64,000 bases of DNA from Alphaproteobacteria bacterium (GTDB lineage Bacteria > Pseudomonadota > Alphaproteobacteria > Rhizobiales > BM303), in contig JAJRYE010000016.1 of the NCBI GenBank assembly GCA_024275895.1, positions 1 through 64,000 of the forward strand. Direction: 5' to 3'. Below, piece after piece: positions 15,430-21,534 of this stretch. Under the pieces are notes generated by a model, which was given only the letters and a program-made list of their open reading frames with translations, ran no database searches and was not told the origin of the DNA. The stretch's first letter is position 1, and each line of letters starts with the position of its first letter. The position numbers and the translations under genes are program-made.

Positions 15430-16074
15430 ATGACCACCCGCTCTTTTCCTCCCAGGCCGGATTTTTCGCTTGAACGCGTTGCCATCGCCCGCGGCCTTGC
15501 TCCGGTAGCCGGGGTGGATGAAGCGGGAAGGGGGCCGCTGGCCGGGCCGGTCGTGGCGGCGGCTGTTATCCTTGACCCGCACGGCATTCCCGCCGGGCTC
15601 GATGATTCCAAAAAGCTCTCCCCCGCCCGGCGCGAGCATCTGTTCATGTTGCTGCAAAGCACGGCGGAAATCTCTGTCGCCATTGCCGGTGTGGGACGTA
15701 TTGACGCAGACAACATCCTTCAGGCCACGCTCTGGGCCATGGCCAAGGCTGTGGATAAACTCGGACAACGGCCCGACCTTGCCCTTGTTGATGGCAATCA
15801 GGAGCCGCAGCTTGGCTGTTTTTGCAAAACCATCGTCAAGGGCGATGCGCTCTCGCTGTCCATTGCCGCCGCCTCCATCGCCGCCAAGGTTGTTCGCGAC
15901 AAGATCATGGACGAACTGGCGCGCGAATTTCCCGGCTATGGCTGGGAGCGCAACAAGGGCTATGGCACCCGCGAGCATGTCGAAGCGCTGCAAAAACTGG
16001 GGCCGACGCCCCACCACCGGCGCTCTTTTGCTCCGGTCCGGCGGATGCTGAAACAGGCCGGGCCCCGGTGTTAA
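15430..16074 (+). CDS. rnhB: Ribonuclease HII
   Basis: 214-residue RNase HII, which cuts RNA in RNA-DNA hybrids and at single ribonucleotides. [20 protein letters not shown] holds the catalytic DEG motif, then [18 protein letters not shown] and the [18 protein letters not shown] helix. ATG 15430 gives the normal family length. Directly upstream of ccrM, a pairing that recurs in alphaproteobacteria. Confidence 0.95.
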
Positions 16075-16085
16075 CCCCGCCTTTA
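16071..16085 (+). promoter_or_regulatory. CtrA-like box upstream of ccrM
   Basis: TTAA (16071-16074), 7 nt, TTTA (16082-16085): 7 of 8 matches to the CtrA consensus TTAA-N7-TTAA, 74 bp before the ccrM start. The first TTAA includes the rnhB stop codon. In Caulobacter ccrM is activated by CtrA. No GANTC site lies in the short leader. Confidence 0.5.
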
Positions 16086-16098
16086 CCGTGTTTGCTAA

Positions 16099-17265
<1,167 letters not shown>

Positions 17266-17504: not shown

Positions 17505-20183
<2,679 letters not shown>

Positions 20184-20221
20184 GGAAAGCTGATGAAAAA
20201 GCGGTAACGGATCATTAACGT

Positions 20222-20294
20222 TAACCGGGTGTTAAACGAACCGGTACAGACTGACACCTGTTGCCGTTGAATGTATTCTTGTGGTATAGAGTCA
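20222..20294 (+). promoter_or_regulatory. CtrA box and GANTC-overlapping promoter of the cell-wall hydrolase
   Basis: Perfect CtrA motif TTAA-CCGGGTG-TTAA at 20222-20236, with an extra TTAA at 20216-20219. Downstream: -35 TTGCCG (20262-20267), 18-nt spacer, -10 TATAGA (20286-20291). GAGTC, a CcrM site, lies at 20290-20294 and overlaps the -10. In Caulobacter, promoters with GANTC near the -10 are GcrA/CcrM controlled. Confidence 0.6.
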
Positions 20295-20358
20295 TCTGAA
20301 CAGCGGGAGGGACCTCCGCCAAGAGCTGCATCCATGTGGATTTTGCGGGTAAAGAGCC

Positions 20359-21534
20359 ATGTTTCACGAAGCGCAAGACGACGAAGATGAGCGCCGGACA
20401 GGGGGTCCTCGAATGGAATCGCAACAAAAGAGCGTCAGGCGTTTCGCCATGCTCGCCTTATCCAATGTGGTGGCTGTTGCCGGCTTGTTGGGGATGGCTA
20501 TCTATTTTTACTGGGAAATTGAAAACGGCGAACTCATCCTTCGCACCGATGCGCTCGCCAGCGTGGGCGAGATGGGCAAGACCGACCGGCTCATGGCGCT
20601 CAAAACCTCCAGAACGGATACAGACCGCATTGATACGGACCGCCTGCCAACCGCGCCGGTGCAGGAGGGTCTGGTTGACGAAGAGCGGCCTTTATCGGCG
20701 AAAACCGCGCGCTTGATCCCGCCGCCGCTTGTAAACGAGGCGGGCAAGAGCGATGCCCTGAATATCCTCGCCAAAGAGGTGATTGCCAGACGCATCACGC
20801 CGCAGGAATCTTTCGACCTTGCCTCCGTTGCCCCCGACAAGCCTTATCCGCTTGAGGATCTGGCCCGCGCCAGGACCCGGAACGGGCAACCCGCCGGCAA
20901 GGCGGCGCTGAAAACCCCGGTTAAACCGGAAGAAGAAACAAAGGCCGAGCGCAAGAACCGCCTGATGCTGGCAAAACTGAAACATAAGGAACGGGCGCAA
21001 TATTGTCTGTCGGCGGCGATTTATTATGAATCCGCCTATGAGCCCAAACGCGGCAAGGAAGCTGTCGCCCAGGTGATCTTGAACCGCAAGGCGAGTAAAA
21101 GTTATCCCAATACGATTTGCGGCGTGGTTTTCCAGAATGATCACATGAAAAACCGCTGCCAGTTCTCCTTTGCCTGTGACGGGCGCTCGGACCGGCCCAA
21201 AAAGACCAAGCCGTGGAAACAGGCGGAGCAGGTCGCCAAATCCTTCCTGGTCGGTGGCAAGCGCGTCCGCGCCATGAAAGACGTGACCCATTATCATGCC
21301 GATTATGTCCGGCCGAAATGGGCCAGCAGCCTGATCCGGGTTTCAAAAATCGGGCACCATATTTTTTATAAAATTCCGCCGGGCGGAGACCGTGTCCGGG
21401 TGGCCTCCAACAATCGCCGCGCGCGCGGCGGATACCGGATATTCAAGATTGCCCCCCCGGCAAAGCTGTTCGGATCGCTCAAATCTGCCTCGGCTCCTGC
21501 TCCGACTCCCGTGGCGATTGCCTCCGACAACTGA
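20359..21534 (+). CDS. Membrane-anchored SleB-type cell-wall hydrolase (Hydrolase_2)
   Basis: 391 residues: short cytoplasmic start, one membrane helix (about 31-51, MLALSNVVAVAGLLGMAIYF), a Pro/Lys-rich periplasmic linker, and a Hydrolase_2 domain at about 214-338. The domain has YCLSAAIYYESAYEPKRGKE with the likely catalytic Glu224, AVAQVILNRKASKSYP, and the paired Cys region TICGVVFQ..CQFSFACDG. The family cleaves peptidoglycan (lytic transglycosylase or amidase type). ATG 20359 has AAAGAG just upstream; ATG 20413 is an alternative. The promoter suggests cell-cycle timing, so a division or remodelling role is inferred. Confidence 0.87.
   Translation: MFHEAQDDEDERRTGGPRMESQQKSVRRFAMLALSNVVAVAGLLGMAIYFYWEIENGELILRTDALASVGEMGKTDRLMALKTSRTDTDRIDTDRLPTAPVQEGLVDEERPLSAKTARLIPPPLVNEAGKSDALNILAKEVIARRITPQESFDLASVAPDKPYPLEDLARARTRNGQPAGKAALKTPVKPEEETKAERKNRLMLAKLKHKERAQYCLSAAIYYESAYEPKRGKEAVAQVILNRKASKSYPNTICGVVFQNDHMKNRCQFSFACDGRSDRPKKTKPWKQAEQVAKSFLVGGKRVRAMKDVTHYHADYVRPKWASSLIRVSKIGHHIFYKIPPGGDRVRVASNNRRARGGYRIFKIAPPAKLFGSLKSASAPAPTPVAIASDN

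Follow-up and report, generated by a model that had tools for sequence, protein, structure and literature searches.

According to our analysis, the perfect TTAA-N7-TTAA box upstream of a gene for a SleB/CwlJ-type cell-wall hydrolase is quite probably an operator of CtrA, which would place the hydrolase in the CtrA regulon, as a member retained throughout its bacterial order. The hydrolase is thus probably switched by the cell cycle, since the CtrA box is kept across the whole order. The motif, the synteny, the conservation and the presence of the pathway genes were established by computation.

Locus and promoter elements

The window, that is, the whole stretch of 64,000 nucleotides of DNA that was analysed, carries the promoter motifs between ppdK and the hydrolase gene. 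The features relevant to this report are the following.

16159 to 17265, plus strand: ccrM, encoding a GANTC adenine methyltransferase (N6_N4_Mtase and RAMA)
17505 to 20183, plus strand: ppdK, encoding pyruvate phosphate dikinase, the syntenic upstream neighbour of the hydrolase gene
20204 to 20218, plus strand: weaker second CtrA-type N7 box GTAACGGATCATTAA with one mismatch, preceding the perfect box by 17 bp (motif scan)
20221 to 20235, plus strand: perfect CtrA-type box TTAACCGGGTGTTAA (TTAA-N7-TTAA), read on the minus strand as TTAA-N7-TTAAC
20245 to 20252, plus strand: TACAGACT, a candidate for a weak CtrA-promoter -10 (CAGACT at box offset 26, the place of TANNNT in other families)
20261 to 20266, plus strand: -35-like TTGCCG, identical in the congener and there also 25 bp from the box
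20285 to 20290, plus strand: -10-like TATAGA, with an 18-bp spacer from TTGCCG (TATACA with a 17-bp spacer in the congener)
20289 to 20293, no strand assigned: GAGTC, a CcrM methylation site that shares 2 bp with the end of the -10, at a position that is not conserved
20413 to 21534, plus strand: SleB/CwlJ-type cell-wall hydrolase (Pfam Hydrolase_2) with an N-terminal membrane anchor

The hydrolase matches Hydrolase_2 (PF07486) above the gathering score (88.4 bits against a cut-off of 27, residues 228 to 337), and peptidoglycan cleavage is predicted from this domain. As its start we took the ATG at 20413, which follows AGGGGG and was picked through alignment with the congener; the longest ATG-started ORF begins at 20359. 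The predicted N-terminus consists of a short stretch followed by a hydrophobic anchor-like segment, as judged by eye from the sequence. No intrinsic terminator was found in the gap between ppdK and the hydrolase gene, and read-through from ppdK into the latter is therefore possible. Comparison of the 5' region with Rfam returned no elements, and none matched the short GC-rich inverted repeat (GGAGG...CCTCC) that lies at 20306 to 20319 in the 5' leader, right after the predicted start site.

The elements described in the first-pass annotation are all present, though every one begins 1 bp before the position given there. A consensus promoter scan chose another, weak pair, CTGACA/TATTCT, and our call of TTGCCG/TATAGA therefore rests on its conservation in the congener. 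The motif scan also detected, upstream of ccrM, a CtrA-type box with one mismatch (TTAACCCCGCCTTTA-C) at 16071 to 16085 of the plus strand. CtrA control of ccrM is known in Caulobacter and S. meliloti, with which this box agrees.

Recurrence of the box upstream of orthologous hydrolases

The count of the perfect palindrome in the window (one copy, compared with 0.26 expected) by itself says little, because at least one copy was present in 24 of 100 shuffles. Across the genome the palindrome is not over-represented, with 31 copies compared with 32 for the reversed control pattern. Nearly all of 15 sampled genomic copies are intergenic, a bias that is expected, since TTAA contains a stop codon in one frame, and that was not used as support. 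Perfect boxes in the source genome also precede envelope genes, namely those for PBP1A, UppP/BacA, an FtsE-like ABC protein and GlmU. The shuffles and the genome-wide count would suit an AT-rich intergenic palindrome arisen by chance; this explanation is, however, contradicted by conservation in the congener and across the order far above background, and we deem it extremely improbable. It is the same-spaced occurrence in the congener, together with the order-wide conservation, that raises the box above chance.

In the sole congener compared (G001), the hydrolase gene likewise comes after ppdK. Its upstream region reads TTAACACAGTCTTAA-N25-TTGCCG-N17-TATACA, where the source genome has TTAACCGGGTGTTAA-N25-TTGCCG-N18-TATAGA; the box halves, the 25-bp gap and TTGCCG are kept, while the remaining intergenic sequence has diverged.

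For the orthologue sample 122 loci were taken, almost all of them belonging to the order of the source genome, which is probably Hyphomicrobiales/Rhizobiales and whose named relatives are Kaistia, Devosia and Hyphomicrobiales MAGs. Exclusion of the unusable loci left 57 linked to ppdK and 58 others. With at most one mismatch, the N7 box was found in 45 of the 57 ppdK-linked orthologues (7.4 expected) and upstream of 48 of the 58 other hydrolases (6.2 expected), which brings the overall count to 93/115, against a background of 13/164 (8%) in other upstream regions. The first-pass annotation had named a lack of conservation before orthologous hydrolase genes as grounds for refutation; by that test its CtrA claim is well supported. 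When the comparison was confined to the same genomes, 20 in number, the box was present in 16/20 hydrolase upstream regions versus those 13/164 others (Fisher p about 6e-12). The orthologue counts are not independent, owing to kinship, though clustering of the box-carrying upstream regions at 50% identity yields 55 divergent groups, so the box is not one recently copied sequence. The spacing profile has its maximum at N7, followed by N6 as a partial echo (TTAACCTATGTTAAA fits both). Outside the order the signal is absent, 2 of 26 hydrolase upstream regions carrying the box compared with 4.8 expected.

In some families a separate signal was observed upstream of the hydrolase, the dyad TTAACC...AAGGTTAA (TTAA-N13-TTAA), which is present in 29 of 58 regions compared with 0.2 expected (loci L038, L041, L044, L073 and similar).

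Promoter layout and candidate regulators

Anchored on the box start, the pattern TANNNT peaks at offset 26, in 8 of the 55 non-redundant upstream regions, a count reached by none of 1000 shuffles. With a -10 at this offset, as in several other families, the box would cover the -35, which is how CtrA-activated promoters are laid out; full CtrA sites of Caulobacter activate from the -35 position (PMC4287350). In the genus studied here, the offset-26 position reads CAGACT in the window and GACTCT in the congener, so that of TANNNT only the A and the last T are left. The genus has a stronger and conserved promoter in TTGCCG/TATA[GC]A, whose predicted start, near 20297 in the window, is about 69 bp downstream of the box centre. 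The box is thus about 30 bp farther from the predicted start than the classic CtrA activator sites at -35, a distance that would be atypical for CtrA activation unless a weak closer start, near 20258, is used.

This distance, outside the usual activator position, is one argument for the box acting as a repressor site, or for the hydrolase being served mainly by a CtrA-independent sigma70 promoter for housekeeping expression; another is that TTGCCG/TATA[GC]A, conserved in the genus, appears usable alone. However, the gap between box and promoter is conserved exactly, the box has activator geometry in other families, and CtrA repressor sites usually overlap the -10 (PMC4287350). We regard repression or housekeeping expression as an unlikely explanation.

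Among the regulators, SciP, ChpT and GcrA are encoded in the source genome. In the source bin, which is 86.7% complete, ctrA was not found, the best match having 38% identity and no equivalog being detected, and fliI and cheR are also missing from it. The congener encodes a CtrA that scores above the NCBIfam equivalog cut-off, and its ctrA gene adjoins fliI and cheR. Either an assembly gap or the loss of a flagellar/chemotaxis block fits the absence of the three genes; we favour the assembly gap since SciP and ChpT are retained and the N7 boxes of sciP lie at matching positions in both genomes. The sciP promoters of the two congeners (L170 and L171) each harbor two N7 boxes, with one mismatch each, and in both the boxes sit at -98 and -86 relative to where the Pfam match begins. 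The sciP gene is a known CtrA target.

Another envelope response regulator, CenR or NtrX, or else MucR, might be the main regulator at this promoter in place of CtrA. In Rhodobacter sphaeroides, the CwlJ-like hydrolase RSP_1860 is a direct target of both CenR (PMC9275681) and NtrX (PMC7240162), and MucR peaks often overlap CtrA motifs (PMC4287350). RSP_1860, which two-component systems of the envelope control, resembles the hydrolase by annotation, but its regulators and their motifs differ, and in our sample the CtrA box does not extend beyond the order. Moreover, in a motif comparison that covered CenR (TGA-N8-TGA), the conserved sequence is a different one, TTAA-N7-T[TA]AA, the signal is sharpest at the CtrA spacing, and sciP is preceded by the same type of box. 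Control by these regulators is accordingly deemed quite improbable.

Reading the box as a CtrA operator, we propose that CtrA would receive its phosphate from the CckA-ChpT relay, with SciP holding it in check. As a phosphorylated dimer on the box, it would switch on hydrolase transcription late in the cell cycle, during wall remodelling for division or polar growth. CtrA binding, the direction of its effect, its timing and the start sites are here predicted from sequence. The motif and its spacing are those of CtrA full-site promoters (TTAA-N7-TTAA) as found in Caulobacter and in further Alphaproteobacteria, and several orthologues have a -10 that begins about 26 bp beyond the start of the box, so that the box overlaps the -35. 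In several other families, then, the box would replace the -35, with the -10 beginning 26 to 27 bp after the box start, whereas in this genus, where CtrA binding is likewise predicted, the box is placed farther upstream, 25 bp before a separate sigma70-type promoter TTGCCG-N17/18-TATA[GC]A (TTGCCG/TATAGA in the window), and CtrA would act from about -69 or via the weak closer start. A doubtful further step is that the genus rewired a CtrA promoter whose box had ancestrally occupied the -35: the box would have been kept, and a new sigma70 promoter with GANTC sites, about 38 bp farther downstream, would have taken over transcription, giving the wall hydrolase a two-input cell-cycle switch with CtrA upstream and methylation at the core.

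The GANTC site and comparison with known systems

GANTC is depleted in the window (82 sites compared with 227 expected), as is typical of genomes using CcrM. Given an intergenic density of 2.35 per kb, a GANTC inside the 46-bp core promoter has a chance of about 10%. Upstream of the hydrolase orthologues GANTC is not enriched (1.69/kb, compared with an intergenic background of 1.67/kb), and 13/93 box-carrying upstream regions have one no more than 80 bp from the box, about what the background predicts. Its position is not fixed, the offset from the box start being 68 in the source genome and 26 and 46 in the congener. The GAGTC site, which reads AGAGTCA on the plus strand and TGACTCT on the minus strand, does not fit YGAKTCK, and neither do the congener sites; flanks of this type are tied to GcrA activation in Caulobacter, though Brevundimonas is without such a preference (PMC7987155). 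With GANTC at background density, located elsewhere in the congener promoter and lacking the YGAKTCK flanks, the action of GcrA and CcrM through this site that the first-pass annotation had put forward is not borne out, and GAGTC most likely overlaps the -10 by coincidence. A genus-level role for the promoter GANTC may nonetheless exist, since both congeners have one, at differing positions.

Dual control, with CtrA at the box and GcrA acting through the methylated GAGTC at the -10, would tie the hydrolase to the methylation state. GcrA and CcrM are both encoded, and the presence of a GANTC somewhere in the promoters of both congeners would be a coincidence of roughly 1% at the intergenic density. 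In Caulobacter, 58% of the cell-cycle start sites with GANTC upstream have another master-regulator motif (PMC4287350). Set against the background density, the shifting position and, with the caveat of Brevundimonas, the mismatched flanks, this evidence leaves dual control unlikely. What survives of the joint timing by CtrA and methylation claimed earlier is the CtrA operator, well supported as a conserved element, while its combination with methylation timing is not supported. The ccrM gene does lie about 3 kb away, upstream, but nearness alone has no regulatory meaning. The co-occurrence of CtrA and GANTC motifs is by itself misleading here, the CtrA motif being conserved and GANTC not. The Caulobacter ctrA P1/P2 promoters, controlled by GANTC/GcrA plus CtrA, likewise have a GANTC and a CtrA-type box together in a single regulatory region; in contrast to them, the GANTC considered here sits at the edge of the -10, is not conserved and is without the extended motif.

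A parallel in content is offered by the CtrA regulon of Sinorhizobium and Brucella, likely members of the same order, which covers cell division, envelope and peptidoglycan genes and has envelope genes as direct targets. Direct CtrA binding to the promoters of genes for peptidoglycan metabolism is known from Brucella (PMC10787603), and the direct CtrA regulon of S. meliloti includes envelope genes (PMC4433202). We found no direct report of the hydrolase as a CtrA target in the literature; the main texts on S. meliloti are without it, and their supplements may list it.

The hydrolase is therefore put forward as a new predicted order-wide CtrA target, and as a candidate it is immediately testable in tractable relatives. 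The link between CtrA and the hydrolase appears to be specific to the order, which probably includes polar-growing bacteria, in which the timing of wall remodelling is poorly understood; it would directly connect the master cell-cycle regulator to one SleB/CwlJ-type hydrolase encoded next to ppdK.
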